Of a stretch of DNA of 44,951 bases, positions 1,020-20,777 are shown piece after piece. Source of the stretch: a bacterium. GTDB taxonomy: Bacteria > Gemmatimonadota > Glassbacteria > GWA2-58-10. Positions within the stretch are counted from its first letter, which is position 1; each line of letters begins with the position of its first letter. The translations under genes and the position numbers were made by a program. The notes beneath the pieces were generated by a model that did no database searches, had not been told where the DNA came from, and was given only the letters and a program-made list of their open reading frames with translations. The stretch spans positions 1-44,951 of the forward strand of contig JAJFUG010000116.1 of the NCBI GenBank assembly GCA_021372515.1, given 5' to 3'.

Positions 1020-3287
1020 ATGAAAAAGCTGCTGGCTGCATTCGCTTTGACTGCCCTGGGCGTGACAGCCGCGGCCCGGGCCCAGGAATGGAAAGCGCCG
1101 GACTGGCTGGGCGAGCTCAAGCCGCTCCAGTTCGAGTGCAAGGTACGGCTGGAAAGGCCGCGCCTATACGTGCGGCCGGAGGAGCTTTCCACCGTGCGCG
1201 CCCGGATCGGCTCCACCCATGCCGAGGCCTGGGCCGGTGTGCTGGGCAACCTGACGAACAAGAGCGCCAAGGAGCGCATGCTGGCTAACGCGTTCCACTA
1301 TCTCGTGACCGGTCAGCAGGCCAGCGCCCGCACTGCCATCGCCGCGGCCCTGGAGCTGGCCGCCACCCCCAACGGGGATGATTGGGAGGCCACGCACAAG
1401 GTCTGGCCCGAGGCCGTGGTCTGGGACTGGTGCCACGACCAGTTCACCCGCGCCGAGCACGACAGCCTTCTGGCCGGAATCCGCGCCCAGCTCGCCCTGG
1501 CCGGGGGAGAGGACCTCGAGACCCAGCCGCCGCACGCCGGGCACCTGGTAAACCACATGGCGGATGCCCATATCCCGGCCGGACTGGCGTTCTACGATGA
1601 GGACCCTTCGATTTTCGAGCGGGCGGTCAATGTGGCCAAGACCCAGCTCGCCGCAAAGAGCGTTTTCTACCGCGAGGGCCTCTCCTCGCAGGGCACCTCC
1701 TACGGGGTGACCCACTACCAGGCTGACATGCGTATCCTGTGTGAGCTGTACAAGGGCACGGACCTCGATCTGTTCCCGCGGCTGCCGTTCATGGCCCAGG
1801 CCGGGCGCTACTGGGTCTACGCCCGCCGCCCGGACGGCCAGTTCCTGCGTAACGGCGATGACTGGCTGGACCACCGTCCCCAGAACTCACGCCGCGACCC
1901 GCGAGGGCGTCCAGAGGGGGCGTTCCCGTACTACGACACCGCGGAGGCCTGGACCAGCCCGGCCCTGTCCGAGATGCTGCTCTACGCCGCGGTGCGTTAC
2001 GATGATCCGGTGCTGTTCAACGAATATCTGCTGGGCCGCGACCTCAACCGGGTCTGGACCGCGATCAGCGACATAATCTGGCGCGACCCGGAGCGCAAGG
2101 CCGCCGGGCCGCAGGAGTTGCCCACCGTGCGCTGGTCTGGCGGGGCGGCCGGCACGCTGCTGTTCCGCACCGGCTGGGGCGGCAGGGACGACGTGGTCGG
2201 CATGTTCAAGGTCATGCCGCTGTACGTGAAGAACCATGACCACCTGGACCGTCTTAGTTTCCAGATTTACTGCCGCGGCGCTCTGGCTATCGACTCGGGT
2301 GAGTACGAGGCCTCGCTCTCGGGTTACGATTCCGACCACTGGCTCCAGTACTACCAGCGCACAATCGCCCACAACTGCCTGCTGATCCGCGACCCGGACG
2401 AGAAAGTGGTCTACCGGGGCCGCCCGGTGCAGGCCGATGGCGGCATGCCCTACCCACGCGAGGGCGACAACCCGGAAAAACTGGAGAGTATCGCGGAGCC
2501 GGATTTCAATCTGGCCCGGGTGCTGGCCCACGCCGAGGATCCGGCAGGACAGTATGCCCTGGTCACCGGAGACGCCACCCGCGGTTATGGTCCCAAGGTC
2601 GAGCTGGTGCGTCGCACGTTCGTGTTCCTTAAAAACCGCCCCGGGGATGGCCCTGTGGCCAGTTTCATCGTCCACGACCGGGTGCGCTCCAGCGACCCCA
2701 CGTTCCAGAAAGTGTTCCTCCTGCACAGTATCGAGGAGCCGGAGGTGGGCAAATTCACGGTCAGGGTGAAGCGCGGCGGAGACAGGTACAGCGGCTCCAT
2801 GCTCTGTATGACCCTGCTTCCGGTCAATCCGCGTATTATCAAGGTCGGCGGGCCGGGGCATGAGTTCGAGGTCAACGGGGCAAACTACCCGATCGGGGAG
2901 AAAGAGGGGGATGTGGAGGCCGGGGCCTGGCGCGTGGAGGTGAGCGCCCCGGACACCTCGGCCGAGACCGAGTTCCTGCATCTGCTACTGGTCTATCCGG
3001 GAAGCGCGCAGCTCGGCGGCACAGGCGTGGCCTCAAAAGATAAGGGTTGGTTGACAGTGAGCCTCCCGGGTTGGAATGTAGCCCTGCGTGATGATTCGTT
3101 GTCCTCGAAGAAGTTGGAGTACAACAGCGACGGCTCCGACGTACGGCACCTTATCGCTGGACTGGAGCCGGGCGGTGCAGTGAGTGTGAGCCTGGAGGGC
3201 AAGCCGCTGACACAGGGAAAGGTGGGGGCGAACGGTTGTTTCATGTTCGAGTCCGGCCAGGGGACAGTGCGGGTGGAGTTGAAGTAG
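1020..3287 (+). CDS. heparinase II/III-family polysaccharide lyase, secreted
   Basis: A 755-residue protein with a Sec signal peptide (MKKLLAAFALTALG..., likely cut after the Ala-rich AARA near residue 21). An N-terminal alpha-helical toroid (about 40-350) with WDWCHD and NHMADAHI is followed by the beta-sandwich typical of heparinase II/III (PL21/PL12-like). The family hallmark is clear: NHDHLDRLSFQIY at about 405-417, DSGEYE at about 425 and TIAHN at about 448-452; His406, His408 and His451 are candidates for metal or catalytic roles. It probably eliminates uronic-acid-containing glycans in the periplasm or outside the cell; the substrate cannot be read from sequence. The ATG at 1020 has a strong GGGGAGG ribosome site eight bases upstream. 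It follows the hydrolase gene by 34 bases and ends before a bidirectional terminator. Confidence 0.82.
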   Translation: MKKLLAAFALTALGVTAAARAQEWKAPDWLGELKPLQFECKVRLERPRLYVRPEELSTVRARIGSTHAEAWAGVLGNLTNKSAKERMLANAFHYLVTGQQASARTAIAAALELAATPNGDDWEATHKVWPEAVVWDWCHDQFTRAEHDSLLAGIRAQLALAGGEDLETQPPHAGHLVNHMADAHIPAGLAFYDEDPSIFERAVNVAKTQLAAKSVFYREGLSSQGTSYGVTHYQADMRILCELYKGTDLDLFPRLPFMAQAGRYWVYARRPDGQFLRNGDDWLDHRPQNSRRDPRGRPEGAFPYYDTAEAWTSPALSEMLLYAAVRYDDPVLFNEYLLGRDLNRVWTAISDIIWRDPERKAAGPQELPTVRWSGGAAGTLLFRTGWGGRDDVVGMFKVMPLYVKNHDHLDRLSFQIYCRGALAIDSGEYEASLSGYDSDHWLQYYQRTIAHNCLLIRDPDEKVVYRGRPVQADGGMPYPREGDNPEKLESIAEPDFNLARVLAHAEDPAGQYALVTGDATRGYGPKVELVRRTFVFLKNRPGDGPVASFIVHDRVRSSDPTFQKVFLLHSIEEPEVGKFTVRVKRGGDRYSGSMLCMTLLPVNPRIIKVGGPGHEFEVNGANYPIGEKEGDVEAGAWRVEVSAPDTSAETEFLHLLLVYPGSAQLGGTGVASKDKGWLTVSLPGWNVALRDDSLSSKKLEYNSDGSDVRHLIAGLEPGGAVSVSLEGKPLTQGKVGANGCFMFESGQGTVRVELK

Positions 3288-3329
3288 GGGATAGATCGAT
3301 GTAGTTGAAAAACGACGCTGTAAAAAGCA

Positions 3330-3360
3330 GGGGCGGGTTTCGAACCCGCCCCTTTTCTTT
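3330..3360. terminator. bidirectional intrinsic terminator between convergent genes
   Basis: A perfect ten-base-pair hairpin (3330-3339 with 3343-3352, GC-rich, three-base loop) is followed by TTTTCTTT on the plus strand. It is preceded by TAAAAAGC, which gives a T-tract on the minus strand. It sits between the lyase (plus) and the last gene of the efflux operon (minus) and can serve both. Confidence 0.85.
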
Positions 3361-3414: not shown

Positions 3415-4146
3415 TCAGCCCAGGAATTTCTCGCGCCGCTGTAGGTTGAGCAGGCCGTAGAGCAGGGCCGCCGCCGCGGCGCAGGCCAGGATCACCCGGT
3501 TGGTGAGCACGATATCGGCCCAGGCGGCCGGGTTGGCATCCCGCGGCAGGTCGTAGGGGTTGAGGAAGATGTTCCATTTCCAGTTGGAGATGGCCGAATC
3601 GGGCCGTCCGATCCAGAAAAAGAAGCTGATGATCGAGACCAGCACCGCCGTGCCGCTGCCGCTGCGCACCAGGGTCGAGATCATGAACGCCAGGCAGCCC
3701 AGGAACACCACCGGGAACATCACCTGCAGCACCATCGCGCCCAGGTTGAACCGCACCAGCACCAGCGAGGCCAGCCCCGCCAGCACCCACACTATCGCCG
3801 CGGTAAGCAGGAACACCAGGGCCAGGCGCAGCAGCCAGACCTTGTAGCGGTAGTTGGGGATGCCGAACAGTATCTCCAGCATGCGGCTGTCCAGGTCGTT
3901 CTGGATGCCGAACGTGCTGGGGTAGAACATCAGCAGCAGGCCCGGCACCAGCAGCAGTGGAAAGACATTGCTCGCCCCCGGGGTCGACTGGGCGTTGTAG
4001 AGGTTGATCCCGGTCACGGCCAGGAAAATGAAAACCGCGGCCCCCAGGAAATAGACGAACTTGCCGCCGAAAATGATTTTCAGGTTGTAGCGGACCAGCG
4101 AGCCGGCCAGCACGGCCCAGTTGTGTATGGTTCGACGCCAGGGCAT
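3415..4146 (-). CDS. ABC-2 type permease, six transmembrane segments
   Basis: A 243-residue integral membrane protein with about six hydrophobic helices: residues 30-48, 60-75, 100-125, 128-150, 155-175 and 220-238. The arrangement matches ABC-2/NatB-type permeases, including an amphipathic N-terminus and the conserved stretch around FGIQNDLDSRMLEILF that follows the second helix and normally contacts the ATPase. It has no ATPase of its own. Its start codon lies two bases after the stop of the RND-ABC fusion, and its ribosome site AAGGAG lies inside the end of that gene, so translation is very probably coupled. I infer that this permease is the partner of the ATPase domain carried by the fusion. 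It is the last gene of the seven-gene operon, 55 bases before the bidirectional terminator. The substrate is unknown. Confidence 0.8.
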   Translation of the reverse strand: MPWRRTIHNWAVLAGSLVRYNLKIIFGGKFVYFLGAAVFIFLAVTGINLYNAQSTPGASNVFPLLLVPGLLLMFYPSTFGIQNDLDSRMLEILFGIPNYRYKVWLLRLALVFLLTAAIVWVLAGLASLVLVRFNLGAMVLQVMFPVVFLGCLAFMISTLVRSGSGTAVLVSIISFFFWIGRPDSAISNWKWNIFLNPYDLPRDANPAAWADIVLTNRVILACAAAAALLYGLLNLQRREKFLG

Positions 4147-4148
4147 GC

Positions 4149-7100
4149 TCAGCTCTCCTTGGGCGCGGCCGCACCCGTCTTTTTGGCCTTCATCTTTTTC
4201 TGCGCGCTCTCCGGGTCCCGTCCCAGCAGCCAGAGGTAGGCATCCTCCAGGGTGGGCTGGGCCTGGATCGCATCCGGGCGCGGCGACTGGTCGCTCAGGC
4301 AGCGCACCCGTATCTTGTCCTCCACGCGCATGTGGTGCACGATACGCAGGCTCTCGCGCGCGGCCTGGAACTCCTGCGGCTCCAGGTTGAACTGCCAGAC
4401 ATGCCCCTGGGCGGCGCGGGTCATGTCCTGCGGGTCGCCCAGGTAGTGCATGGCGCCGCGGTCCAGCACGGCCACCTTGTTGCAGGAGCTGGAGATGTCC
4501 TCGATGATGTGGGTCGAGAAGATCACGATCCGCTCGCGCGAAAGCTCGACTAACAGGTTCCTGAAACGGATGCGCTCGCGCGGGTCGAGGCCCGCGGTCG
4601 GCTCATCCACCACCAGGATACGCGGCAGGTGCAGCAAGGTCATGGCGATGCCGATACGCTGTTTCATGCCGCCCGAGAACGAGCCGATCCGGCGCTCGGC
4701 CTGCTCGGTCAGGTGCACCGCGCCCAGCACGTAGTCCACCCGCTTCAGCCGTTCCTCGCTGTCGTAGATACGCTTGAGGATCGCGATGTAGTCGAGGAAC
4801 TCGCGGGCGCTCATGTTATCGTAGGTGCCGAATTCCTGCGGCAGGTAGCCGATCAGCCCCTGCAGCTCCTCGCGCTTCTCATCGTAGCTGATCCCGTTGA
4901 TCCGCACCGTGCCGTAGCTCTGGTCCAGCACGCCGCAGACCACGCGCATCAGGGTGGTCTTGCCCGCGCCGTTCGGGCCCAGCAGGCCGAACATCCCGCT
5001 TTCTATCTCCAGCGAAACACTGTCCAGCGCCTTGAACGGGGTGCGCTTGCGGCCGATCACCGGGACCATGCGCACCAGACGGTAGAAATTCATGCGCAGC
5101 CAGACCAGATGGCCGCTCAGGCGCATGATGTTGATTTTCTGGCCGTACAGGCGGTCGGAGGCGGCCTTGACCGCCAGGCCCGCGTACCAGAGCGTGGCCA
5201 CGAAAATTATCCCCGGCAGCTTGAAACCCATCTGGTGGTACGAGCCCAGGCAGAGCGCCGGCGGCAGCCAGAACAACACCAGGGCCAGGCGCCGGGCGAA
5301 TTTCGAGCCCTCCTGCGCTCCGCCGCGTGAGCCGGCGCGGTAGTCCAGCCAGGCGCGCACCGGCTTGAGGCCCGACAGCAGAAACACTTGCAGGACCACG
5401 CTCAGCACCACGATCCAGAAATGGCTTTGCAAATAAAAGAACACGTAGTACACACCGAAGCCGAAAATGGGCAGTTGCCATTGCAGGCTGTCCAGGTCGC
5501 GCCAGGAGCGATAGACCCGGATCGGGCCGCGAAGCTGCTCCATGCGTTCGGCTTTTTTCCACTCCCGGACAAACCGCCCGTAGCTGTCGTAGACTTTCAC
5601 CAGACGGCGGATGCCGATAGTGAGCGACGTGCCGCGCTCGATCACGTCCTCACGCGCCTGACGCAGGCTGCTCAGGGTAAACCATGTCACGCCCGGCACC
5701 GCGGTGGCGGCCAGGAACAGCCAGACCCCGCGCCAGAGCAGGCTGTCCACGCCCCACCAGATGAGCGCACACAGCCCGGCGAACACGAGCGCCTGCCCGA
5801 TCTTCAGCCGCAGGCTCAGGGTGCGCAGCCAGGCCAGCATCGACTCCAGGCCCGAGTAGACCGTGGGGATGAACACCAGGGTGAACAGGGTGCTCAGGCT
5901 CAGGCCCCCGATCACCGTGATCGCGAACGGCGCACCCACCTGGGTCACGTACTCGGCCTTGCCCATGGCCAGCGGCAGCATGCCCACGATGGTGGTCGCC
6001 GCGGTGATGAGGATCGGACGCAGACGGGCCTGGCCGGCGGTCATCAGGGCGCGGCTGCGGCGAAACCCGCGCGAGCGAAGGATCTTTGTATAGTCGATCA
6101 GGATGATCCCGTTGTTCACCACCACGCCCAGCAGGATCAGGAACCCGACCATCGAGTTGGCGTTGTTCAGCGAGTTGCCGGTCAGGATCAGGCCCCAGAA
6201 AGCGCCGATAGTGGCCAGCGGGATGGTGAACAGGATCACCGGCGGCGCGGTCAGCGACTCGAAAGTCGAGGCCAGGATCATGTAGATCAGGATAAAGGCC
6301 GCGGCGATCAGGAAATAGAAATCCTTGTACTGGTTCTCCTCATGCTCCACCTGCAGGGCCACGCCCGGCGGCAGGGTCATCGAGGCCATCAACTGGTCGA
6401 TGCCGTCGCGGGAGGCCTGGAGCAGGCTTTTCGAGTCGGTGATCTCATCCCGGAACGAGTAGCTCACCTCGACCCGGTTCTCCTGGTTCAGGCGGGTGAT
6501 CTGAGACAGGTCGGAGGCGAACACGATCCGGCTGAGCTGCGACAGGTAGAACTCGCCGCCCGCGGAGGTGGAGATGCGCAGGTCCTCCAGGTCGCGGAAG
6601 GTGCGCTCTTTCTCGGGCTCATCCGTGCGGATCACGATGTCGTACTCGATGTCACCCTGCTTGAACATGGTGCCGCTGGTGACCTCTTTCTGGAACGAGG
6701 CCAGCTCGGTGGTCACGCTGGTCAGGGGGATCGAGTAGTAGCTCAGCAGACGGTGGTCCAGCAGGACATGCACTTCCGGACGGCTGCCCGACATGTTCTG
6801 GCGCGCCCGGCTGATACTCTCGTTGTGCTCCAGCACGTACTGCACGTCATCGGCCACCTTGCGCAGCAGGTCGAAATCGTTGCCCATGATCACAACCTTT
6901 TCCTGCTGGTTGCCGATTCCGAACAGCCGCTCGAACGAGGCCATCTGCCCGCCGCCCATACCGCCCGAGAAGCGAGTGCTGGAGGAGGGCTCGGTCAGGC
7001 TGACATCCCCGGTGCCGAAATTGTCGATCCGGCGCCCGACCTCGGAGCGGATCGCCTGGATGTCACGGTGGAAGGTTTTCTCGTAATCTTTCTTGAACTG

Positions 7101-8918
7101 CAGGGTCACTGTGGCCTCATCCTCGTAGACCGTGGTGACCCTGTCCTGGACCTCGGGGATGCTGTCCAGGCGGGACTCCAGCTTGGAGGCGGCCAGGTCG
7201 GTGGTCTCCAGGGTGGCCCCGCGCGGCATGGTCAGGTAAACAGTCAGCTCGCTCTGCTCGGCCTGTCGTGGCACATCCAGGCTCAGGCCCATGCAGATCA
7301 CGATGCTGGCGAAGAACACCAGCGCCGTGCCCAGGATCGTGGGCACCGGGTAGCGCATGCCGGTCTTGAGCAGAAGGGTGTAAATCTGCACGGCCCGGTT
7401 TTTCTGCGAGACCCGGTTGAACGAGATGGGTTTGGTCTTGCGGTCCAGCAGGGCGTGGGCCAGCATGGGGACCAGCAGCAGGGCCACCACCAGCGAGACC
7501 AGCAGGGTGGAGACTATCGACACCCCCACGTTGCGCCCGATCAACCGGATCATGAAATCATCGGCGAAAACGAACGGCAGGAACACGGTGATCGTGGTCA
7601 GGGTGGAGGCCACAATCGAGCGCCAGACCTCGCGCGTGCCCTGGGTCACGGCGATGTCCCGTCCTTTGCCCAGGGAAACCAGTCGATAGATGTTCTCCAG
7701 CACGACCACGCTGTTGTCCAGGAGCATGCCCACAGCCAGGGCCATGCCCACCAGGGTCAGGCTGTTGAGCGAGATATGGTAGCCGTAGAAGAAATTGAAC
7801 GCGGTCAGGATCGAGACCGGGATGGCCAGCAGCACCACGGTCACCAGGCGCAGGTTACGCATGAAAAACCAGAGGATCAGCACCGAGAGCAGGCCGCCGG
7901 TCAGGGCCAGGTTGAGGATCAGGTCCAGGTTTTTCTGCATGTCCTCGCCGGTGTCGCTCTGGATCACGATCTGGACATCCTGCGAGGCCAGGCTGCGGTT
8001 GAGCTCGTCCACCTTGGCGCGCACGGCGCGCGACAGGGCGATCAGGTTCACGTTGGCATCCCGCACCAGTTGCAGCGTGATCGCATCCTTACCGTTGACC
8101 CGGCTGACCGTGGTCTGGTCTTTCAGCCCGAAAGTGATGTCCGCTATGTCGCCCAGCAGCACCGGACCCTTGGCGTCCACTACGAGCTGCTCCAGCTTGA
8201 GCACCTTGTCGTAGTCCGACTGCAGGTTGACGAAATAGACCCGGTCGCCATCATAGGCCCGCCCGACAAAGGTCTTGTCCAGGTTGCCGGCGGCGATCAG
8301 GCTGCGCACCCGCCCGGGAGACATGTTGTAGGCCTCGGCCGCCTCGGGGGCGAGTGAAATCTCCACGGTCTCGCTGCGGCCGCCGGTGACATCCACGTTG
8401 GCCACGCCCTCGATGCTGGAAAACTCACGCTGGATCTTCTCGTCGATCAGCGCGCGCAGACGCTCCAGCCCGCCCGAGCCGCGCACCTGAAGGCGCATGA
8501 ACATGTTGGACAGCCGCTCGGTGTCCACCTTGAGCACGCTGACCTGGAACTCCTCGGGCAGCGAGGAGGTGAGCGCCTCCACCCGCTCCTGGAGGTCGAG
8601 GTAGGCCAGGTTCATGTCCACGCCGCGGTCGAAATAGGCGAAGATGGTGCCGCTGCGCTGGTCGATGCGCGACTCCAGCTTGTTCAGCCCGGCCATCGAG
8701 CCGGCCGCCCCCTCCAGCGGGACCACCCCCTTGCGCTCCAGGTACTCCGGGTTGACCTCGTAGCGCGAGCTTACGCGCACGATCAGGAACGGCAGGTCCA
8801 CATCCGGCATGATCTCCAGGGGCAGGTTGCGGTAGGAGATCACGCCCAGCAGGCATGTCCCGATGAACAGCATCGAGACCAGGACTTTACGGCGTACGAT
8901 GGTTTCTATCAGGCCCAT
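4149..8918 (-). CDS. RND efflux pump fused to a membrane linker and a complete ABC ATPase
   Basis: A single uninterrupted 1589-codon frame. Residues 1-1030 are a full AcrB/CzcA-type RND transporter: N-terminal helix, two periplasmic porter regions, TM4 motif GMLLDNSVVVLENI near 397-410, and TM10 motif VVVNNGIILID near 933-943. Residues 1040-1255 form a linker with about six hydrophobic helices in three pairs, which I cannot assign to a family. Residues 1290-1589 are an ABC ATPase: Walker A GPNGAGKTT 1314-1322, signature FSGGMKQR 1414-1421, Walker B ILVVDEP 1434-1440, switch His in STH 1468-1470. All nucleotide-site residues look intact. RND pumps are normally about 1030-1050 residues and proton-driven; I know of no characterised RND protein carrying its own ABC ATPase. 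The frame follows the first RND gene by 11 bases and precedes the ABC-2 permease by two. A recent gene fusion or assembly error is possible, but the linker belongs to neither parent family. Confidence 0.9.
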   Translation of the reverse strand: MGLIETIVRRKVLVSMLFIGTCLLGVISYRNLPLEIMPDVDLPFLIVRVSSRYEVNPEYLERKGVVPLEGAAGSMAGLNKLESRIDQRSGTIFAYFDRGVDMNLAYLDLQERVEALTSSLPEEFQVSVLKVDTERLSNMFMRLQVRGSGGLERLRALIDEKIQREFSSIEGVANVDVTGGRSETVEISLAPEAAEAYNMSPGRVRSLIAAGNLDKTFVGRAYDGDRVYFVNLQSDYDKVLKLEQLVVDAKGPVLLGDIADITFGLKDQTTVSRVNGKDAITLQLVRDANVNLIALSRAVRAKVDELNRSLASQDVQIVIQSDTGEDMQKNLDLILNLALTGGLLSVLILWFFMRNLRLVTVVLLAIPVSILTAFNFFYGYHISLNSLTLVGMALAVGMLLDNSVVVLENIYRLVSLGKGRDIAVTQGTREVWRSIVASTLTTITVFLPFVFADDFMIRLIGRNVGVSIVSTLLVSLVVALLLVPMLAHALLDRKTKPISFNRVSQKNRAVQIYTLLLKTGMRYPVPTILGTALVFFASIVICMGLSLDVPRQAEQSELTVYLTMPRGATLETTDLAASKLESRLDSIPEVQDRVTTVYEDEATVTLQFKKDYEKTFHRDIQAIRSEVGRRIDNFGTGDVSLTEPSSSTRFSGGMGGGQMASFERLFGIGNQQEKVVIMGNDFDLLRKVADDVQYVLEHNESISRARQNMSGSRPEVHVLLDHRLLSYYSIPLTSVTTELASFQKEVTSGTMFKQGDIEYDIVIRTDEPEKERTFRDLEDLRISTSAGGEFYLSQLSRIVFASDLSQITRLNQENRVEVSYSFRDEITDSKSLLQASRDGIDQLMASMTLPPGVALQVEHEENQYKDFYFLIAAAFILIYMILASTFESLTAPPVILFTIPLATIGAFWGLILTGNSLNNANSMVGFLILLGVVVNNGIILIDYTKILRSRGFRRSRALMTAGQARLRPILITAATTIVGMLPLAMGKAEYVTQVGAPFAITVIGGLSLSTLFTLVFIPTVYSGLESMLAWLRTLSLRLKIGQALVFAGLCALIWWGVDSLLWRGVWLFLAATAVPGVTWFTLSSLRQAREDVIERGTSLTIGIRRLVKVYDSYGRFVREWKKAERMEQLRGPIRVYRSWRDLDSLQWQLPIFGFGVYYVFFYLQSHFWIVVLSVVLQVFLLSGLKPVRAWLDYRAGSRGGAQEGSKFARRLALVLFWLPPALCLGSYHQMGFKLPGIIFVATLWYAGLAVKAASDRLYGQKINIMRLSGHLVWLRMNFYRLVRMVPVIGRKRTPFKALDSVSLEIESGMFGLLGPNGAGKTTLMRVVCGVLDQSYGTVRINGISYDEKREELQGLIGYLPQEFGTYDNMSAREFLDYIAILKRIYDSEERLKRVDYVLGAVHLTEQAERRIGSFSGGMKQRIGIAMTLLHLPRILVVDEPTAGLDPRERIRFRNLLVELSRERIVIFSTHIIEDISSSCNKVAVLDRGAMHYLGDPQDMTRAAQGHVWQFNLEPQEFQAARESLRIVHHMRVEDKIRVRCLSDQSPRPDAIQAQPTLEDAYLWLLGRDPESAQKKMKAKKTGAAAPKES

Positions 8919-8929: not shown

Positions 8930-11900
8930 TCAGTAAGAGTGGTCGGCCCGTCCGGGGAACAATGCCTCCACCAGACGGTCGAACACCAGATAGACACAGG
9001 GAATGACCACCAGGGTCAGGGCGGTGGAGGTCACCATGCCGCCGATCACGGCCAGGGCCATGGGTGCGCGCAGCGATGCGCCTTCGCCGAACCCGAAGGT
9101 GAGCGGCAGCAGGGCCAGGATCGTGGTCAGGCTGGTCATCAGGATCGGCCGGATACGCCGGCGCCCGGCCTCGAGGATCGCCTCGTGACGGGCCAGGCCC
9201 TCGCGCCTTAGCTGTCCGATGGCGTCCACCAGGATGATCGCGTTGTTCACCGCGATCCCGGCCAGCATGATTATTCCGATGTAGGCCATGATGTTGAGCG
9301 GACGGCCCAGAATGAGGAAAATGCCGAGCGCCCCCACAAAGGCCAGCGGGATGGAGAGCACGATGGTGAACGGCTGGACCAGGGACTCGAACTGCGAGGC
9401 CAGCACCCTGTAGACCAGGATCAGCGACAGCCACAGGGCGAACTTGAGGCTGGCGAACGATTCCTGGCGGTCGCGTTCCTCGCCGGTCAGGCGCCAGGAG
9501 TACTCGGGCGGGAAATCCACCCCGGCCAGGGAGGCGCGGATACTCTCGGCCGCCCGGTCGATGGTCGTGCGGGAGGAAAGGTGCGCGCTCACCGTGCCGC
9601 AGCGCTCCTGGTCCTCGCGGTAGATCGCCACCGGGGCCATCTCCTGGCGCACATCCGCCACCTCGTACAGGCTGATCTTGTTGTTGCCCTGGGTCACCTG
9701 GATCATGTCCAGCGAGTTCACGCTGGCCTGCGGCAGCTTCACCGTGATGTTGCGCTCCTCGCCACCGGTCTCCCAGGTGCCGGCATCCGCCCCGGAGAGG
9801 ATATTCTTCAGGCGGGTGCTCACGCTCTGCACGCCGATGTCGTAGAGGCCGGCGCGGATACGGTCCAGGACGATCTCGATCTCCGGGCGGCCCTGGTCGA
9901 AATTGGTCTGGAGGTTCTCCAGCCCGTCGATGGCCGCCAGCTTGTCCCGGGCCTGGAATGTCAGCTCTTTCAGACGGTCGAGGTCCTCGCCCCGGATCTC
10001 CAGCACCACCGGGGCCTGCTCGCTGCCCGTGCCCATCTGGAGCGTGGTCTGCTCCTGGTAGACCCGGGCCTCCAGGTCCGGAATCTGGCCGAGCATCGAG
10101 GAGGTGCGGGCCATGGCCTGCTCGGTGGTCAGGCTGCTGTCACGGTTCAGGAAGACCCGGATCGTGGCCGTGTTCTCGTCCTCGAACTCCTCCGAGATGT
10201 CGCCCTCGGTGTCGCGCCACTTGCCCGAGATGCTGTAGAGCGAGCGCAGAGAGCCACCCAGCAGCTCGTGAATCTGTTTCTCGATGCCGTTCACCGTACC
10301 GGCGGTGCGGTAGAGCTCGGTGCCCTCGGGCAGGTGCAGGTCGACAGTGTAATCGCCCAGGTCGGTGCGGGGGATGAACTCGCTCTTGAGCTTGGGTATG
10401 AAAGCGGCGGTCAGGGCGATCAGGGCCAGCGCCGCGCCGATCACGCTCCAGGGACGCGCCACCAGGCCCGACAGGAGCCGTGGGTAGCCCGAGAACTGCA
10501 AGGCCCGCGAATCGTAATCCTCCGGCCGTCCCTTGCGTCCCAGCAGGCGGGTGGCCAGCATGGGCATCACCAGGATCGCCACCACCAGAGAGGAAAGCAG
10601 CGAAAAGGCCACGGTCCAGGCCTGGTCCTTGAACAGCTCGCCGGAGAACCCTTGCAGGTAGACAATGGGCAGGAACACCACCACGGTCGTGACCGTACTG
10701 GCGATAATCGCCCCGCCCACCTGGCTCGTGCCCAGGACCGCTGCCTCGCGCAGACTGCGGCCCTCGTCCAGGTGGCGCGAGATGTTCTCCATCACCACGA
10801 TGGCGTTGTCCACCAGCATGCCCGCCCCAAGGGCCAGTCCTCCCAGGGTCATCAGGTTGAGGGTCAGGCCGTTGAAATACATCAGGTTGAACGTGGCCAC
10901 AATCGAGATCGGGATGGCCAGGCTGATGATGAGCGTAGCCCCGACCCGGCGCAGGAACACGAATAGCACTATCACGGCCAGCAGGATGCCGTACAGGGCG
11001 CTCTGCTCCAACTCATCCACCGAGCCGCTGATGAACTGGCCGCTGTTCTCGATCACGGTCAGCTCGTAGCCGGGCAATGCCTGGCGCAGGGTCTTCAGGG
11101 CCGTGTTGAACTGCTCCACCGCCTTGACCGTGTTGAAGCGGGTCTCCTTGTACACGGCCAGGGCCATCGCCCGCTTGCCGTCCAGGTACACGATGTTGTC
11201 CGGTTTCTTGGCCGCCAGGGTGATAGTGGCGATGTCCTTGAGCAGAACGGGGGTGCGCTGGTCCGTGACCGAGGTGCTTCCCCCCGCGGCGGCTCCCGCT
11301 GCGGGGGAGGCAGTGCTCCCGCTGCCGCTGCTTGCCGTGGATTCATCCTTCCAGGCCAGGACCACGTTGCCGATGTCGTCCAGCGAGGTGAACTCGCTCA
11401 CGCCCTTGATCACGTACTTGGTGCCCATCTCCACCAGCGAGCCGCCCGAGATCGAGCGGTTGTACTCGCCGATCTTGGAGGCGACATCGCTCTGGGTCAG
11501 ATTGTGGGCCTGCAGAAGGTAGTCGTCGGTCTGGACCTGGACCTCTTTTTCCTCCTGTCCCAGGAGTTTCACATCCGCTATACCCTCCAGGCGCACCAGC
11601 TCGTTGCGGATGTAGTTCTCGGCCACCCTCCGCAGCTCGTCCATGTCGTCGATCTGCGGGTTGCTCAGCCCGACCACGATCACGGGCGTTGCGTTAGGGT
11701 CCTGGCGCGAGACCGTGAGCTCGTCGATCTCGGTGTTCTGCTTCAGGTCGCCCAGGGATTTCTGCACGGACAGAAAGGCCTCGTCCATGTCCGTGCCCCA
11801 GGCGTACTCCACGGTGACACGGGCGAAACCGACCCGGCAGACCGAGGAAACGTGCACCGCGCCTTTCTGGCGGCTGGCCAGGGCCTCGGCGTCCTTGACG

Positions 11901-12091
11901 AACTGGCGCTCCATCTCCTCGGGCGGGCGCTCGCCGGAGGTGATTTCCACGTATATCTTCGGGCTCTGCATCTCGGGGTAGAGGTCCATACCCAGACGGG
12001 TGAACGAGATGTAGCCCAGGAGCAGGACCCCCAGGACGAGCATCAGGATCGTGACCGGGTAATCCACCGAAAACTGCACTATCTTCTTCAT
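8930..12091 (-). CDS. RND efflux pump inner-membrane subunit
   Basis: About 1050 residues with the standard RND layout: an N-terminal helix (FSVDYPVTILMLVLGVLLLG), two large periplasmic loops and twelve membrane helices. TM4 carries GAGMLVDNAIVVMENI, so the first of the two AcrB proton-relay aspartates is kept and the second is Asn. TM10 carries GIAVNNAIILVD, with Asn where AcrB has Lys940. RRIRPILMTSLTT retains the later Arg/Thr region. Around residues 255-285 a low-complexity Ser/Gly/Ala insert interrupts the first porter loop. I prefer the ATG at 12091 over the upstream GTG at 12100 because AGGTG lies six bases before it. With the fused pump downstream it could form a mixed trimer as MdtB and MdtC do; that is inference from adjacency. 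The adaptor and outer-membrane channel are the preceding genes. Confidence 0.9.
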   Translation of the reverse strand: MKKIVQFSVDYPVTILMLVLGVLLLGYISFTRLGMDLYPEMQSPKIYVEITSGERPPEEMERQFVKDAEALASRQKGAVHVSSVCRVGFARVTVEYAWGTDMDEAFLSVQKSLGDLKQNTEIDELTVSRQDPNATPVIVVGLSNPQIDDMDELRRVAENYIRNELVRLEGIADVKLLGQEEKEVQVQTDDYLLQAHNLTQSDVASKIGEYNRSISGGSLVEMGTKYVIKGVSEFTSLDDIGNVVLAWKDESTASSGSGSTASPAAGAAAGGSTSVTDQRTPVLLKDIATITLAAKKPDNIVYLDGKRAMALAVYKETRFNTVKAVEQFNTALKTLRQALPGYELTVIENSGQFISGSVDELEQSALYGILLAVIVLFVFLRRVGATLIISLAIPISIVATFNLMYFNGLTLNLMTLGGLALGAGMLVDNAIVVMENISRHLDEGRSLREAAVLGTSQVGGAIIASTVTTVVVFLPIVYLQGFSGELFKDQAWTVAFSLLSSLVVAILVMPMLATRLLGRKGRPEDYDSRALQFSGYPRLLSGLVARPWSVIGAALALIALTAAFIPKLKSEFIPRTDLGDYTVDLHLPEGTELYRTAGTVNGIEKQIHELLGGSLRSLYSISGKWRDTEGDISEEFEDENTATIRVFLNRDSSLTTEQAMARTSSMLGQIPDLEARVYQEQTTLQMGTGSEQAPVVLEIRGEDLDRLKELTFQARDKLAAIDGLENLQTNFDQGRPEIEIVLDRIRAGLYDIGVQSVSTRLKNILSGADAGTWETGGEERNITVKLPQASVNSLDMIQVTQGNNKISLYEVADVRQEMAPVAIYREDQERCGTVSAHLSSRTTIDRAAESIRASLAGVDFPPEYSWRLTGEERDRQESFASLKFALWLSLILVYRVLASQFESLVQPFTIVLSIPLAFVGALGIFLILGRPLNIMAYIGIIMLAGIAVNNAIILVDAIGQLRREGLARHEAILEAGRRRIRPILMTSLTTILALLPLTFGFGEGASLRAPMALAVIGGMVTSTALTLVVIPCVYLVFDRLVEALFPGRADHSY

Positions 12092-12137
12092 CCTGAACAC
12101 CTGGCTTGTGTGCTGGAATTTACGGCCCGGGGGCCGC

Positions 12138-13190
12138 TCACTGGGTGATTTTCACCCTGGAACCGTCGCGCAGCGTCTCGAACCCCTTGACCACCAGGCG
12201 GTCCTGAGGGTCAAGGCCCTCGGTGACCTGCACCTGGTCCGGGTTCTCCAGGCCCAGGGTGATCCGGCGCTCCTGGGCGATCCCGCGGTTGACCACGTAG
12301 AGGATGCGCCGGTTGCCGCGCGTGAGGATGATGTCCTTGTCGATCACCACGGCGCTGTCGGCGCGGGCGGTCACGATCTCGGCCTTGACGAACATGCCGG
12401 GACGCAGGACCTGCTCCGGGTTGTCGATCTGGAGGCTGGCCTGGAAAGCCCGGGTGTCGCTTGCCAGGGCCGGGGAGACCTCGGTCACGCGGCCGTCGAG
12501 CACCTTGTCCGGGATGGAGTAGTTCATCACCCGCGCGTTCTGCCCGGTCTGGATCTTGCCCAGCAGCTTGCCCGGCAGGCTGACATCCAGGTTCAGGCGG
12601 CTGTAGTCCATCACCCGGAACAGGGTTGTGTTCTGGTTGACTTTCACCCCGCGGGTGAAATATGGCAGCTCCACAATCAGCCCGTCGAACGGGGCTTTCA
12701 CCTTGAGCTTGGCCAGTTGCATCTGTGCGTTTTCAAAACTGTAGCGCGAGTCGATGGCGGTCTGCTCGGCAGTCTTGAGGTCGCGCTCGGTCACGCCGCC
12801 TTTCTCGAAAATCGACTTCTGCTTTTCAAACTCCCGCTGGGCGCTCTCCATGGCCATTTTCTTGACTTCGATCCGGATATCGTTCTCCTGCTCCGGGTTG
12901 TCCAGGAAGACCACGATCTGGTCTTTTCTAACCCGGTCGCCCAGAGCGAACTCCTTGCCGGTGGACGAGTTGATTCCCAGGCGGTAGAAACCGGCGGTCT
13001 CGCTGACCATGCTGGCGTCACCGTCGGCGTTGACTGTCCCGGTGGCGATCACGAACTCCTCGATGGGCTTTTTCGCCACCTCTTCCACCGAAACCGGTAT
13101 CTCCACGTCCGACTGGCTCGTCGAGGGCTGGCTCCCGCAGGCCGCCGCCAGCAGCACGAGCCAGGGTAAGGCCCGGAATGCAGTTTTCAC
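12138..13190 (-). CDS. periplasmic adaptor (membrane-fusion) lipoprotein of the RND system
   Basis: A 350-residue HlyD/AcrA-type adaptor. The N-terminus is a lipoprotein signal (LLAAACGS, acylated Cys near 19), so it is anchored in the inner membrane by lipid. It has the lipoyl half-motifs (VSETAGFYRLGINSSTG... and VKAPFDGLIVELP), a short coiled-coil hairpin between them (about 100-150), a beta-barrel domain with the LRPGMFVKAEI signature, and a membrane-proximal domain with LVVKGFETLRDGSRVKI at the end. It starts with GTG preceded by AAGGAG seven bases upstream. The gene lies 37 bases before the first RND gene (to the longer start) and 49 bases after the channel gene. It should bridge the RND/ABC inner-membrane unit to the TolC-like channel. 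Only one adaptor is present for the whole operon. Confidence 0.92.
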   Translation of the reverse strand: MKTAFRALPWLVLLAAACGSQPSTSQSDVEIPVSVEEVAKKPIEEFVIATGTVNADGDASMVSETAGFYRLGINSSTGKEFALGDRVRKDQIVVFLDNPEQENDIRIEVKKMAMESAQREFEKQKSIFEKGGVTERDLKTAEQTAIDSRYSFENAQMQLAKLKVKAPFDGLIVELPYFTRGVKVNQNTTLFRVMDYSRLNLDVSLPGKLLGKIQTGQNARVMNYSIPDKVLDGRVTEVSPALASDTRAFQASLQIDNPEQVLRPGMFVKAEIVTARADSAVVIDKDIILTRGNRRILYVVNRGIAQERRITLGLENPDQVQVTEGLDPQDRLVVKGFETLRDGSRVKITQ

Positions 13191-13239: not shown

Positions 13240-14754
13240 TTATTTCTTGTCGCCGTCTCCGAGCGGATCGGTCTCGATATCGTTCAGCACAGAGTGGTTC
13301 TTTTCGAAATCGTACAGCGACTCGATCTTCAGGTTCAGCAGGGCCAGGCGGTAGTCGATCAGGGCCTGGACCCGTGCGATCTTTTTCTGCGACAGCTGGT
13401 TCTGGCTCAGGTTCAGGTCCATGCTGGTCAGGTCGCCGTTCTTGTAGCGTTCCAGGTCGATCTCATAGGTGAGCTGGGCGTTTTTCACCCCCAGCTCGGC
13501 CAGGTCGATCTGGGTGGCCGAGTTCTGCAGCGAACGGTAGGCCTCGCGCACCCCGATGGTGATGTTGTTGCGCTGGTTGTCCGACGAGAGCCGGGTCTTG
13601 CGGATCGAGGCCATCGAGGCCTTGACCCGGTGGTTTTTCTCGCCCCAGTCCCAGAGCGGGATGTCGAACTGGAGACTCACCCCCTGGTTTCGTGTGGGCT
13701 TGTCGTACATGTTGGAGAACGACTCGTCGTTGCCCTTGATGCCGTAGTTGACCGTCATGTCGCCGCGGAATTCGTTCTGGGCCTCGGTCTCGGTCAGGTC
13801 GAATTTGGCGTTCTCGATGTCGATGTCGCGCTGGCGCAGTTCCATGCGGCTGGTCAGGCCGTGGTCCAGCGCCTTTTTCAGGTCCACCTCGACCGGCTGC
13901 CAGGTGACATCCGCCTCCACCGTGATCTCCTCATCCAGCGGGATGCCGATCAGGAGCTTGAAACGGTCGAGGTTGTTGGCCAGCTGCATCTCGCCGCTCT
14001 GCACGGTGGAACGGCTGCTGGACAGGTCAACCTCGGCCTGGTACAGCTCCTGGCGCGCGGCCAGGCCGCCCTCGACCTTGTTGCGGATGATGTCGTAGCT
14101 GGCCTGACGGTTGGCCAGTTCCTCGCGGGCGATCTCCAGGCTCAGCTTGCTCTCGTAGACATTGTAGAAAGCCTGGGTCACCTGGCGCTCTATGCTCAGC
14201 CGCTGCACGCCGTAGGCCAGGCGGGTGGTCTCCAGGCTCAGCTCCAGACGGCGGGTGGCCAGCTTGGTGCGGTTGTAGGTGAACAGAGGCTGGGTGTAGC
14301 TGAGCAGCAGGTTGTTGGTGTAGCTCTTGTTGCGCACCTCGTTGTAATCGCTGATCGAGTTCTGCCAGTTCAGGGTGTTGGTCAGTTTCAACGTGCCGTC
14401 GGTCTGGATCAGCGGCTGGCTGATCGTGAACCGGGAGGAGGTGCTCTTCGAGTCGTTGCTGCTCCAGACCGAGAACATCGGGTTGAAAGTCTTGTCCCTG
14501 GAGTAGGTGATCGGGTTCAGGGTCAGGCTGAACTGGCTCTTGAGCGCGGCCTGCTGGGCGCGTAGCAGCTCGCTGGAGCGCTCCAGGTCGAGCTTGGTGC
14601 TCAGGATGTCGGGACTGTTCCCGAACGCGGTCTCCAGGGCCGTGTCCAGGGTCAGTGTGGTGGCCGCCCGGCCCGGCGACCAGAGCACGCTCAGGGTGCA
14701 CAGGCAGGCCAGGGCGCACCCCGCGGCGCGTTGCAGTCTTGTCGGGGAGTTCAT
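13240..14754 (-). CDS. TolC-family outer-membrane efflux channel
   Basis: A 504-residue protein with a signal peptide (hydrophobic core AAGCALACLCTLSVLWSPG, cleavage near the AAT after it) and the two internally repeated halves of TolC/OEP proteins. Each half is a long helical hairpin joined by outer-membrane strands; TLDTALETAFGNSPDI opens the first repeat and VEVDLKKALDHGLTSRMELRQRDIDI the second, both matching the usual L..A...AL..NP.l pattern. Residues 100-150 are rich in Ser, Thr and aromatic residues, as in the beta-barrel part. The gene lies 16 bases after the large permease gene and 49 bases before the adaptor. It provides the exit duct for the tripartite pump and possibly for the ABC parts as well, since no second channel is present. 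Confidence 0.9.
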   Translation of the reverse strand: MNSPTRLQRAAGCALACLCTLSVLWSPGRAATTLTLDTALETAFGNSPDILSTKLDLERSSELLRAQQAALKSQFSLTLNPITYSRDKTFNPMFSVWSSNDSKSTSSRFTISQPLIQTDGTLKLTNTLNWQNSISDYNEVRNKSYTNNLLLSYTQPLFTYNRTKLATRRLELSLETTRLAYGVQRLSIERQVTQAFYNVYESKLSLEIAREELANRQASYDIIRNKVEGGLAARQELYQAEVDLSSSRSTVQSGEMQLANNLDRFKLLIGIPLDEEITVEADVTWQPVEVDLKKALDHGLTSRMELRQRDIDIENAKFDLTETEAQNEFRGDMTVNYGIKGNDESFSNMYDKPTRNQGVSLQFDIPLWDWGEKNHRVKASMASIRKTRLSSDNQRNNITIGVREAYRSLQNSATQIDLAELGVKNAQLTYEIDLERYKNGDLTSMDLNLSQNQLSQKKIARVQALIDYRLALLNLKIESLYDFEKNHSVLNDIETDPLGDGDKK

Positions 14755-14770: not shown

Positions 14771-17700
14771 TCATTTGTGCTCCACCCATTTCACGGCGTC
14801 CGCGTACACGATCCGTCCCTTGCTCTGGTCGGACAGCTCCACCACGGCGTCGCCCTGCGAGAAATACCAGTCCTTCAACAGCACCCAGCCGGTGTTTTCC
14901 GCGCTGGCGTCGATCTCCACTTCTTCCGTCCCGTCATCGTGATGCACGCTGAAATGGAAGTCATCCACGAGGACGAAATTGCCGGCTCCGCCGGGGCCGC
15001 GACGCATCCAGGGCACGTCGAACACCGTGATGTACACGAACACGTCGTACTGGCCGCTCTTGGGCAGCTTGGCGGTCCAGGAGACCTTGTTGTCGCCCGA
15101 GCCGGCCTTTATGTAGCTGGCGCTGTGACGGTAGAGGCCGTAGAAATCGGAATTGGCCGTGGCGGTCCACTGGGCGGGTGGATTCCAGAACCAGATCCCG
15201 GCGTACTCGTCCTTGGTTTTCTGCCCGTTGCGCGAAAACAGCTTTTTCAGGCGTCCCTCGCTGGCCCGCTGCTCGATCTTGAACCCCGGGTCCTCGTTGT
15301 CCACCACGATTGTCCCCGGCTCCTCCAGGCTCAGCGGCCCCTGGATTTCCTCGACCCCCTCGAACGGCGCGGCCTTGTGGTCCTCGACCGGCTCGCCCAG
15401 GTGAAGGTTCACCTCGGCCGGGATGTTGAGCGAGACGAAAGTGTTGACCCGCATGTTGCCCGGGGCCTCATCCACCAGCAGCGAGATTTTCCGCGCCGCT
15501 CCGGCCGGGATCGCGTAGAGGTGTTTCTCCTCGGAGGAGCTGTTGTCCGGTCCGGGCCGGAACCCGGGGCCGCCCCGCGGACGGCTGGCATCCACCTGGA
15601 TCAGACCCTCGCCGTCACCCGTGTTCTGCACCTTGAAACTGAGCTGGTAGCGGGTCTGGTTGTCCTGCAGCACCTCGCGGCAGTCGCTGCCGGCGAACAG
15701 GAACGCCGGCATGCTTTTCGAGTTAAGCCAGGCATCCATCCGGCTGTCCAGGTCGATCTCGAACCGGGCTTTCAGGCTGTCCAAGAGCACCGCAGTGGGC
15801 AGGACCTGGTGACGGAATTTATTGAGCTGGCTGTGCAGGAACTCCTGGAACGGTTTCTGCCCCAGGCGGGCCTCCACCAGGCCGAACAGGATCTGGCTCT
15901 TGGAGGAGAGCACCCCCAGGCGCAGGACAGCGTCCTCCGGGTCGGCCAGGACCTCGGAAAGGGACTGCTTGGCCAGCAGGAGGTTCGCCTCCTCCTCCAC
16001 CGAGATGCCCAGCATCATCCGGCGGAACGGGTTGGTGTCCGTGTTCAGGAGCGACAGCAGGTACTGCTCGAAAGCCAGGTTGAAAACCACGTGGTCTTTA
16101 GAGGAAAGCCGCCCCGGGAAACCATAGAACTGCGGGAACTGGTTGAACGTCTGCGTCTCCGAGCCCGAGCCGAAGACCGACATGGCCAGGCGTTGCAGCG
16201 AGATATTGCCGCCGGAGGAGCGGCGGAACGCCCGCATGAACATCCCGCGTTGGTTGCCGCCGCCGAAATTGCTCGAAAGGATCATGTTCAGGCTGTTGCG
16301 GGCGGCGTCCTCGGGCGATTCGCTCTGTCCCCGCCGGGACATGCTCTGGCTGCGCCAGTAGTTCATGGACCGGAAATCCATCCCTTCCATCAGGAGTCCC
16401 TTTTCGGGCAGGAGGGCCTGCTCGGGCTGGATGGACTCGTTGGCGCTGAGCCAGGGACGGTTGTAGTCGCAGAACTGGAGCGGGGTCTCGACCAGGGTGA
16501 ACCTGGGGAACGGATAATCCAGACCCAGCTTGTTTTCCAGGTCGTTCTTGAATTTCTTCAGCTCTTCGGGAAGCTTGGCGCCCAGCTCTTTGAACTGGCT
16601 GGAAAAGAAATCATGCCCGCGCAGGATAAAAATACTGTAGCTCAGGCTATCCGTGGAGATCGACAGGCAATCGTAGCGTCCCGCGGTCACATTGAAACGT
16701 GGCAGGGGCTCCTCGGGGCTGAAACGGTACTTGCCGCCGCCCAGGCTGTCGCGCGCGCCGGGCGCGGTGGCGTTGAGGCCAGCCGCAGTGGTCAGGCTCA
16801 GGCTGAAAGCGGTGAAGTCCTGGTAGTCATCCGTGGGCAGGCCGGGTCCGGCGGGCAGGCCGGACGTGGGATACCAGCCGTCCTCCGGGGTGAGCAGAAG
16901 GTAGTCCGGCTGCACGAAAGCATAAGCTTTGCCCAGGCAGAAGAAAACCGGCCGGTTCGGGCTGTAGCGGACCGAGTCCGGGATGTCCAGGTAGCAGGCC
17001 TGCTGGTCCGGCGCGCCCTCGTAGGCAATCCGCAGTGAGTCCACCGCGCCCGGGGCCAGCGCCTGGGACGGGTGGATGAGCAGCAGGTGCAGCTCACGCT
17101 CGAACGGAATATCCGCTCCGTTGCGGGTTACGCTTTTAACCGTGAACCCGGGGTTCAGGCTCAGCCGGTACTGGTCCAGCGGACTGTCGTTGCGATTGGT
17201 CAGGCTCAGGGCCGCGCTGGCGGACAGGCCAGTCCCGCGGTGCTCCAGTTCGAGCCTGTCCCCGGTCACACAGACACGGGGCTGGGAAGCGTACTTGTCG
17301 TTCATGGCCAGCATGCGGCTGCGCAGGAGGCTGCCGCTGCGGAAATTGTTCACATAGGCCAGGGCCAGGCTCAGCGCGCCGGCCACGCAGAGCGCCGCAC
17401 CGGCCGCGCACAGGATACTGACAATGCGGGTCTGCGGAAGACGGCGCAGGAGCAGGGCGGTGACAAGCACCAGGGCCAGGCCGCTCAACAGGTAGAACCC
17501 ACGCTGCATCAACACCAGGGATATATCTCCCAGGCCGGTGAAATCGGACCAGGCCAGCGGCAGGTTGAAAGCGGTGTAGTCGAACAGCCTGAACGCGTTG
17601 TCCTGCAGGAAAAACATCACCGCGGCGATGTAACCCAGCAGCAGTACGAACACCAGGGCCTGGCTGCGCACAAGGATCATCAGCAGGAAAGTCAGGCCGA

Positions 17701-18184
17701 AGATGAACACCAGGGTGGGCAGGCTTATAATGAGTGGATAGAACACATAGGCCTGCCAGATGAACGGGGCCTCGGCGAAAAACAGATTGAACACCGCGGC
17801 CTCGGCCAGCACTGCGCCGTTGAGCAGCATGAAAACGGCCAGCACGCCCAGGACCTTGCCCAGCACGTAGGAGGCGTTGGTCATCGAGCGCATGTAGATC
17901 ACATCCGTGGTGTCCAGCTTACGGTCGAACTTGAGGAAATCCGAGGCCAGGAAAATGGCCACCACCGCCTGCAGGATGTTCAGGAACAGCAGGTCGGCGT
18001 AGGGTATGCCGCCCGCCATGCCGTAGAACATCCAGCGGGCCGAGCGCTCGAAGCAGAACATGAAGAAATCGAACAGGCCGATCAGGATCATGAACAGCAG
18101 GGCGAAGATGCGGAAAAACCAGCTCCGCCACAGGATTTTGGCCTCGAAACGGGCCACGGCCAGAATGGCTTGGATGAGTGTCAT
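14771..18184 (-). CDS. ABC-2 permease with degenerate M1-peptidase-like region and golvesin-like C-terminal domain
   Basis: An 1137-residue membrane protein. Residues 1-280 contain about seven membrane helices of ABC-2 type. Residues 300-510 look like the beta-rich N-terminal part of M1 aminopeptidases, followed by a helical stretch (520-830) that aligns in style with the gluzincin domain. No HExxH zinc motif is present anywhere, so peptidase activity is unlikely. Residues about 965-1135 match the golvesin/XlyA C-terminal domain: WTAKLPKSGQYDVFVYI, then WVLLKDWYF.QGDAVVELSD, then GRIVYADAVKWVE. Permease-M1 proteins occur in other bacteria; the golvesin addition and loss of the zinc site are what stands out. 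Soluble parts should face the periplasm, where they may bind glycan or peptide. The start ATG has GAGG eight bases upstream. It follows its likely ATPase by 58 bases. Confidence 0.8.
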   Translation of the reverse strand: MTLIQAILAVARFEAKILWRSWFFRIFALLFMILIGLFDFFMFCFERSARWMFYGMAGGIPYADLLFLNILQAVVAIFLASDFLKFDRKLDTTDVIYMRSMTNASYVLGKVLGVLAVFMLLNGAVLAEAAVFNLFFAEAPFIWQAYVFYPLIISLPTLVFIFGLTFLLMILVRSQALVFVLLLGYIAAVMFFLQDNAFRLFDYTAFNLPLAWSDFTGLGDISLVLMQRGFYLLSGLALVLVTALLLRRLPQTRIVSILCAAGAALCVAGALSLALAYVNNFRSGSLLRSRMLAMNDKYASQPRVCVTGDRLELEHRGTGLSASAALSLTNRNDSPLDQYRLSLNPGFTVKSVTRNGADIPFERELHLLLIHPSQALAPGAVDSLRIAYEGAPDQQACYLDIPDSVRYSPNRPVFFCLGKAYAFVQPDYLLLTPEDGWYPTSGLPAGPGLPTDDYQDFTAFSLSLTTAAGLNATAPGARDSLGGGKYRFSPEEPLPRFNVTAGRYDCLSISTDSLSYSIFILRGHDFFSSQFKELGAKLPEELKKFKNDLENKLGLDYPFPRFTLVETPLQFCDYNRPWLSANESIQPEQALLPEKGLLMEGMDFRSMNYWRSQSMSRRGQSESPEDAARNSLNMILSSNFGGGNQRGMFMRAFRRSSGGNISLQRLAMSVFGSGSETQTFNQFPQFYGFPGRLSSKDHVVFNLAFEQYLLSLLNTDTNPFRRMMLGISVEEEANLLLAKQSLSEVLADPEDAVLRLGVLSSKSQILFGLVEARLGQKPFQEFLHSQLNKFRHQVLPTAVLLDSLKARFEIDLDSRMDAWLNSKSMPAFLFAGSDCREVLQDNQTRYQLSFKVQNTGDGEGLIQVDASRPRGGPGFRPGPDNSSSEEKHLYAIPAGAARKISLLVDEAPGNMRVNTFVSLNIPAEVNLHLGEPVEDHKAAPFEGVEEIQGPLSLEEPGTIVVDNEDPGFKIEQRASEGRLKKLFSRNGQKTKDEYAGIWFWNPPAQWTATANSDFYGLYRHSASYIKAGSGDNKVSWTAKLPKSGQYDVFVYITVFDVPWMRRGPGGAGNFVLVDDFHFSVHHDDGTEEVEIDASAENTGWVLLKDWYFSQGDAVVELSDQSKGRIVYADAVKWVEHK

Positions 18185-18242: not shown

Positions 18243-19145
18243 TCAGTCCGCGTCGTCGTGATCGAGCTTTTCGCCCAGTTTCTGCTCCAGGAAATGCACA
18301 TAGGCATGTTCGAGGTTCGGCTCGATTGGCTCGGCGTTGAAACCGTCCGGCTTGTCACCCACCACCTGCACCTCCCAACCGTCCGCCGCCGGCACGGTCG
18401 AGATCACGGACCAGTTCTCGCGGAGGTTGTCCAGCTCGCTGTCCAGGGCGTGAACGAGCCAGGCGTGCCCGCGGGTGGCGGCCACCAGCGCCTCCGGGGA
18501 ACCGTCGTACACCAGTTCGCCGTGGTTGAGCATGGCCATGCGCTCGCAGGAGCTTGAGATGTCGCCCACGATATGGGTCGAGAGCAGGATCACCATATCC
18601 CGTGAACTCATCTCGGACAGGATGTTACGGAAACGAAGGCGCTCCTCCGGGTCCAGGCCGACAGTCGGTTCGTCCACCACCAGCACGCGCGGCTCGCCGA
18701 TCAGGGCCTGAGCTATCCCCAGGCGGCGTTTCATGCCGCCGGAGAGCTTGCCGGCCATGCGGTCGCGGGCCTCGTACAGGCCCACTGTCTCGAGCATCCG
18801 TTCCACGGCCCCGCGCCGGGCGGCGCCCCTGAGGCCGGCCAGGCTGGCGGCGTAGGAGAGGAACTCCCAGGTGCGCAGCTTGGGGAACGTGCTGAACTGC
18901 TGGGGCAGATAGCCCAGGCAGGCGCGCACCCTGGCCCGGTCGCGCTTAAGGTCAAGTTCGCCATAGCGGGCTGTGCCGGTGGAGGGCTCGAGCAGAGTCA
19001 CCAGGATCCGCATCAGGGTGGTCTTGCCCGCACCGTTGGGCCCCAGCAGGCCGAACAGTCCCTGCTCGATCTTCAGGTCGATTCGTTTCAGGGCCTGGAT
19101 TCCACCGCGGTAAGTTTTACTCAAACCGTCGATAGTGATGTTCAT
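18243..19145 (-). CDS. ABC transporter ATPase, first gene of the efflux operon
   Basis: About 300 residues with a complete nucleotide-binding domain. Counting from the upstream GTG (19154): Walker A GPNGAGKTT 38-46, signature LSGGMKRR 137-144, Walker B VLVVDEP 157-163, switch His in STH 192-194. A C-terminal tail of about 80 residues (ending in LEHAYVHFLEQ) follows. I place the start at the ATG at 19145, because GGTGA lies five bases before it. The protein is strikingly like the ATPase domain of the RND-ABC fusion: both have G.FGLLGPNGAGKTTLMR, STHI..DISSSC, a GH.W motif after the core and a LE.AY tail. It should energise the following permease with the pseudo-peptidase domain. NatA/CcmA/NosF-like exporters are the nearest well-known relatives. 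Confidence 0.9.
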   Translation of the reverse strand: MNITIDGLSKTYRGGIQALKRIDLKIEQGLFGLLGPNGAGKTTLMRILVTLLEPSTGTARYGELDLKRDRARVRACLGYLPQQFSTFPKLRTWEFLSYAASLAGLRGAARRGAVERMLETVGLYEARDRMAGKLSGGMKRRLGIAQALIGEPRVLVVDEPTVGLDPEERLRFRNILSEMSSRDMVILLSTHIVGDISSSCERMAMLNHGELVYDGSPEALVAATRGHAWLVHALDSELDNLRENWSVISTVPAADGWEVQVVGDKPDGFNAEPIEPNLEHAYVHFLEQKLGEKLDHDDAD

Positions 19146-20741: not shown

Positions 20742-20777
20742 TCGCTCTCCCCAGACTGGAATAACTGTGCATGGTTG

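Follow-up and report, generated by a model that had tools for sequence, protein, structure and literature searches.

RND and ABC exporters count as distinct classes, each with its own source of energy. The DNA analysed here (the window) is a whole bacterial contig of 44,951 nucleotides (C116), from a genome of 4.87 Mb in 222 contigs that is 99.5% complete, and it contains a gene that reads from an RND permease into an ABC ATPase. This raises the question of whether the two form one protein and, if so, how the two engines are powered and coupled. A natural covalent hybrid would make it directly testable whether an inner-membrane ABC exporter passes its substrate to a proton-driven tripartite pump. 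The gene belongs to a seven-gene run on the minus strand, in the order ABC1, large permease-like protein, TolC, adaptor, RND1, RND2-ABC and Perm. The features of the run and the parts of the fusion gene are the following.

3329 to 3353, not assigned to a strand: strong bidirectional terminator-like hairpin at the end of the operon.
3415 to 4146, minus strand: Perm, a 6-TM protein of 243 aa, probable ABC-2 permease partner of the fused nucleotide-binding domain (NBD), from adjacency, conservation in a second genus (G002) and weak profile matches.
4149 to 8918, minus strand: RND2-ABC fusion gene, 1589 aa (open frame, Pfam ACR_tran and ABC_tran, coding statistics).
4152 to 5048, minus strand: NBD and C-terminal extension of the fusion, residues 1291-1589 (ABC_tran, motifs, confident AF2 model, nearest structures).
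5049 to 5576, minus strand: orphan insert with four hydrophobic segments, residues 1115-1290 (hydropathy, coding frame).
5577 to 5630, minus strand: candidate displaced NBD strand 1 with A-loop, residues 1097-1114 (IGIRRLVKVYD at 1101-1111; suggestive).
5631 to 5831, minus strand: first TM hairpin of the linker, residues 1030-1096 (hydropathy, coding frame; no homologues found).
5844 to 8918, minus strand: RND2 permease part, residues 1-1025 (ACR_tran at 4-1022; alignment with AcrB, MdtB, MdtC and 17 RND proteins of the phylum).
8930 to 12100, minus strand: RND1, unfused RND permease, possible heteromeric partner of RND2 (Pfam ACR_tran, relay residues, G002).
12138 to 13190, minus strand: periplasmic adaptor (MFP; NCBIfam RND_mfp above its cut-off).
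13240 to 14754, minus strand: TolC-family outer-membrane protein (Pfam OEP).
14771 to 18184, minus strand: large protein of 1137 aa, with a multi-TM N-terminal part, a weak M1-peptidase-like stretch and Golvesin_C.
18243 to 19154, minus strand: ABC1, a stand-alone ABC ATPase.

The adaptor and TolC partners for an RND pump are thus encoded in the same operon. Beyond the hairpin at 3329-3353, and separated by it from the operon, a gene for a Heparinase II/III-like protein (1020-3287) runs convergently. Immediately upstream of the operon lies a gene for an HD_5-domain protein (19473-20786).

The fusion gene is a single frame with an ATG start and no internal stop. The full-length ACR_tran domain at residues 4-1022 has an E-value of 3e-162 in Pfam, and ABC_tran follows at residues 1298-1442 with an E-value of 6e-27. 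A long open frame is by itself weak evidence here, because the GC content is 64% and a 989-aa ORF occurs also on the antisense strand of RND2 (5388-8357, plus strand; read as a shadow of the high GC3). The codon statistics are informative in each segment. In the shared frame, the log-odds per codon are +0.59 in the RND half, +0.34 to +0.40 in the linker and +0.49 in the NBD, and they are negative in every alternative frame. GC3 is 84-92% across the RND half, the hairpin, the insert and the NBD. A chance ORF is ruled out by these statistics, and the fused frame is real in the assembled sequence, so that the initial annotation was right to read an uninterrupted frame with a full RND transporter and an ABC ATPase. 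Because frame preference and GC3 are of the coding type throughout, the linker belongs to the protein, provided that the sequence is right.

The linker occupies about 265 aa between the RND part and the NBD. Hydropathy gives six hydrophobic segments between residues 1035 and 1250, in agreement with the helices first proposed there: the first two form a hairpin near 1035-1085, and after a charged stretch of about 65 residues come segments near 1154-1184 and 1207-1250. The NBD would be cytoplasmic, since an even number of predicted TM segments follows the RND C-terminus. We did not observe homologues of the linker in six genomes of the class or in 395 genomes of the phylum (the best E-value, 0.005, is chance at that scale), and nothing was found in plasmids, PDB, viral contigs, Pfam or NCBIfam. 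The possibility that the linker is a second ABC-2 transmembrane domain akin to Perm was rejected (hhalign probability of 0.1%, no Pfam or NCBIfam match). Structure prediction, which the initial annotation had recommended for the fusion together with the permease, was run with AF2 on residues 1018-1589; it gives high confidence for the ATPase from about residue 1300, but the linker is not resolved (pLDDT about 50).

In the fused NBD, the Walker A, Q-loop, signature, Walker B and switch His motifs are all intact (GPNGAGKTT at 1314-1322, YLPQEFGTY at 1358-1366, FSGGMKQR at 1414-1421, ILVVDEPTAGLD at 1434-1445 and FSTHII at 1467-1472). By sequence, the domain is closest to ABCA chains. The solved structures nearest to its predicted fold are Thermotoga NBDs, NosF of NosDFY and the ABCA family. 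On sequence and modelled fold, the fused NBD is assigned to the ABC-2 / type V class of motors. It is 42% identical to ABC1. Its closest relatives in the phylum outside its own family are stand-alone ATPases (L034-L049, from genus g15 and others), which share LVKVYPGPVAALQGVSLEV...GMFGLLGPNGAGKTT.

In related stand-alone ATPases, a strand such as LEIRDLVKVYP lies at the start, about 20 residues ahead of GLLGPNGAGK; its Tyr corresponds to the A-loop aromatic known from NBDs. With the anchored version of a strand profile, the usual place in the fusion scores -4 to -22, while the relatives reach 8 to 19 in leave-out tests. The domain had been described as a complete ATPase; this holds for the catalytic motifs but not for the first strand with its A-loop, which is unrecognisable directly before the domain. 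The best position in the whole fusion is IGIRRLVKVYD at residue 1101 (score 9.1), which comes about 190 residues too early, with four TM segments between this candidate and the rest of the NBD. That score is equalled by 3.4% of shuffled linkers and one segment of the RND half ties with it, so that a split NBD is a lead rather than a result; the first-strand result is also partly post hoc. There is thus weak evidence from the sequence that strand 1 is displaced ahead of four TM segments; alternatively, the first strand is divergent or lost. A split NBD, if true, would be a new way for an ABC motor to be joined to a membrane protein. The full picture, in which one polypeptide would combine an RND pump and an ABC exporter whose NBD is split (strand 1 and A-loop before a four-helix insert), mechanically tied into a dual-energy trans-envelope exporter, appears doubtful to us, without being negligible.

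Perm starts two bases past the stop of the fusion (TGA gc ATG). The position of the ABC-2 permease suggested there is confirmed, but its ABC-2 nature is indicated by weak profile matches: no Pfam or NCBIfam family matches Perm, and outside its own family a two-sequence profile retrieves only proteins that themselves weakly match ABC-2 permeases (E-values of 1e-4 and 1e-3). The single-sequence AF2 model of Perm is poor, and Foldseek gives no meaningful match. The true partner could instead be ABC1 or another permease, and a pairing of ABC1 with the fused NBD is also conceivable. The 1137-aa protein, which has no match on plasmids, is probably the permease of ABC1.

RND2 and RND1 were aligned with AcrB, MdtB, MdtC and the 17 RND proteins of the phylum. 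Both keep the equivalents of D407, R971 and T978 (AcrB numbering), and at the D408 and K940 positions both have Asn, exactly like the 17 phylum relatives. Proton transfer is assigned to these relay residues in a review (PMC8277102). Since the fused RND has the same relay as its unfused relatives, ATP is most likely not replacing the proton gradient, and the new energy input that had been envisaged for a covalent ATPase is unsupported. The number of three ATPases per trimer, also envisaged, is not secured: as in heteromeric pumps, there is a second RND gene immediately upstream. The two tandem genes encode proteins that are 27% identical, and the way in which RND1 and RND2 come together would set the stoichiometry. 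HAE1 pumps are homotrimers and rarely heterotrimers such as MdtBC (PMC8277102).

The operon is present in one other genus of the family (G002), on two contigs that flank the junction. Contig C185 carries a half of the large permease-like protein, TolC, the adaptor and RND1 up to residue 732; its proteins are about 41-63% identical to those of the window (41-43% for the large protein, 61-63% for RND1). Contig C350 starts at the equivalent of fusion residue 1308 and runs into Perm, with 74% identity in the NBD and 61% in Perm. The order RND1 ... NBD-Perm is alike in G002 and in the window. The joint between RND2 and the NBD is not visible in G002, because the stretch from the end of RND1 through RND2 and the linker falls between C185 and C350. 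Homologues aligning across both halves and the linker, which the initial annotation had suggested searching for, were not found in genomes of the class or in the 395 phylum genomes. With the two best candidates per genome scored, no other gene in those 395 genomes spans RND and NBD, and the other RND matches stop by about residue 1058. Unfused RND genes in tandem, accompanied by an adaptor and often by TolC, are a common arrangement in the phylum. Outside the phylum, one contig scan with the full protein and with patterns from close relatives gave distant ABC matches only. No RND-ABC fusion is described in the literature searched, which takes in few subscription journals; with the sequence comparison centred on this phylum, this is weak evidence of novelty. 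The fusion, with its joint seen in one genome, may unite two export engines in a way not previously reported. The main caveat is that its existence in the organism rests on one fragmented assembly and on the synteny of its parts in G002.

The reading that we prefer, and to which we give slightly less than an even chance, is that the fused NBD and Perm make up an ABC-2 (type V) exporter, which is tethered to a tripartite, proton-driven RND pump and acts in series with this pump. Residues 1-1025 would be an ordinary proton-driven HAE1-like RND subunit, and RND2 probably joins RND1, the adaptor and TolC in a pump that spans the envelope. From its C-terminus, the chain would pass through six membrane segments to an ABC-2-class (NosF/ABCA-like) NBD, which would pair with the downstream 6-TM Perm and so form an ABC exporter kept next to the pump. 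Using ATP, this exporter would carry the substrate from the cytoplasm or the inner leaflet across to the periplasmic side, from where the RND unit would send it out through TolC with the energy of protons. As to the substrate, we infer by analogy with the ABC-2 class and from the operon partner that lipids, glycolipids or peptides are plausible. An ABC exporter tied to an RND trimer was one of two ideas put forward initially, and it is the better supported one, apart from the count per trimer, because the NBD is of the ABC-2/type V class, the next gene is ABC-2-like, and NBD and Perm are kept together in G002.

Transport in series has to be weighed against an arrangement in which RND subunit and ABC exporter, though covalently joined, act independently on different or overlapping substrates, the fusion setting only their stoichiometry or location. 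Each half retains all of its own functional residues, and the frequent tandem RND pairs of the phylum imply that the pump works ABC-free elsewhere; the long orphan membrane linker and the apparently displaced NBD strand exceed what a plain end-to-end fusion would need, a weak objection, and we regard this arrangement as possible though on the unlikely side. If instead ATP binding in the tail gated the RND pump or recruited its subunits, the NBD would serve as a regulator or as an assembly clamp and would have no ABC exporter to drive. The unusual location of the first strand and A-loop, which may alter nucleotide handling, would fit such a role, against which stand the intact catalytic motifs and the ABC-2-like permease gene that directly follows in two genera; we consider it improbable. 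Still less credible, and by our estimate very improbable, is that hydrolysis by the fused NBD drives the RND cycle, replacing protons or adding to them. An intact ATPase is indeed covalently linked to the RND subunit, but an ATP-driven RND would be free to lose the relay residues, which are as in unfused relatives, and an ABC partner permease (Perm) is at hand.

A sequencing or assembly error could also have erased a stop or merged two loci, in which case RND2 and the ABC part would be separate in the organism. The fragmentation of the genome, the linker without homologue and the break of the G002 assembly in the same region speak for such an error. On the other side, the coding frame is continuous through the whole linker without a switch, the gene order RND1 ... 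NBD-Perm recurs in G002, and the canonical first strand that a separate ATPase gene would have is absent just before the ATPase. Long repeats of the kind that mark chimeras were sought in the region and none was found (there are short imperfect pairs only, of 20-42 nt and 71-86% identity, one of them inside the linker). An artefact is, on balance, quite unlikely.

With the preferred tethered exporter in mind, the operon can be compared with known systems. It resembles the HAE1 tripartite pumps (AcrAB-TolC and the heteromeric MdtABC-TolC) in the conserved D407/R971/T978, in the adaptor and TolC of the operon and in the tandem RND genes; it differs in that RND2 bears about 560 extra residues with an ABC ATPase. 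The identity with AcrB, MdtB and MdtC is 20-25%, and, unlike in these, the D408 and K940 positions are Asn here. With NosDFY and ABCA (type V), the locus shares the NBD sequence, the predicted fold and a separate, adjoining 6-TM permease gene, but here the NBD stands behind an RND permease, strand 1 and the A-loop are off their usual place, and the permease falls below family cut-offs. In MacAB-TolC, an ATP-driven inner-membrane unit is likewise able to work with an adaptor and TolC (PMC8277102). The NBD of MacB, however, is fused on the N-terminal side of its own permease and MacB has no RND part; in the fusion, Pfam finds no MacB or FtsX domain, and no MacB-type permease was found here. SecDF (PMC8277102) and the Snf7-RND proteins of some Actinobacteria (PMC11237479) are also RND-superfamily proteins fused to another unit, but neither bears an ABC ATPase.

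Elsewhere in the window, an ABC ATPase and a UPF0014 permease form a FetAB-like pair (35036-36537), and genes for an NFACT (RqcH-like) protein, a xanthine/uracil-type permease and a subtilase stand in a row at 24250-29895.
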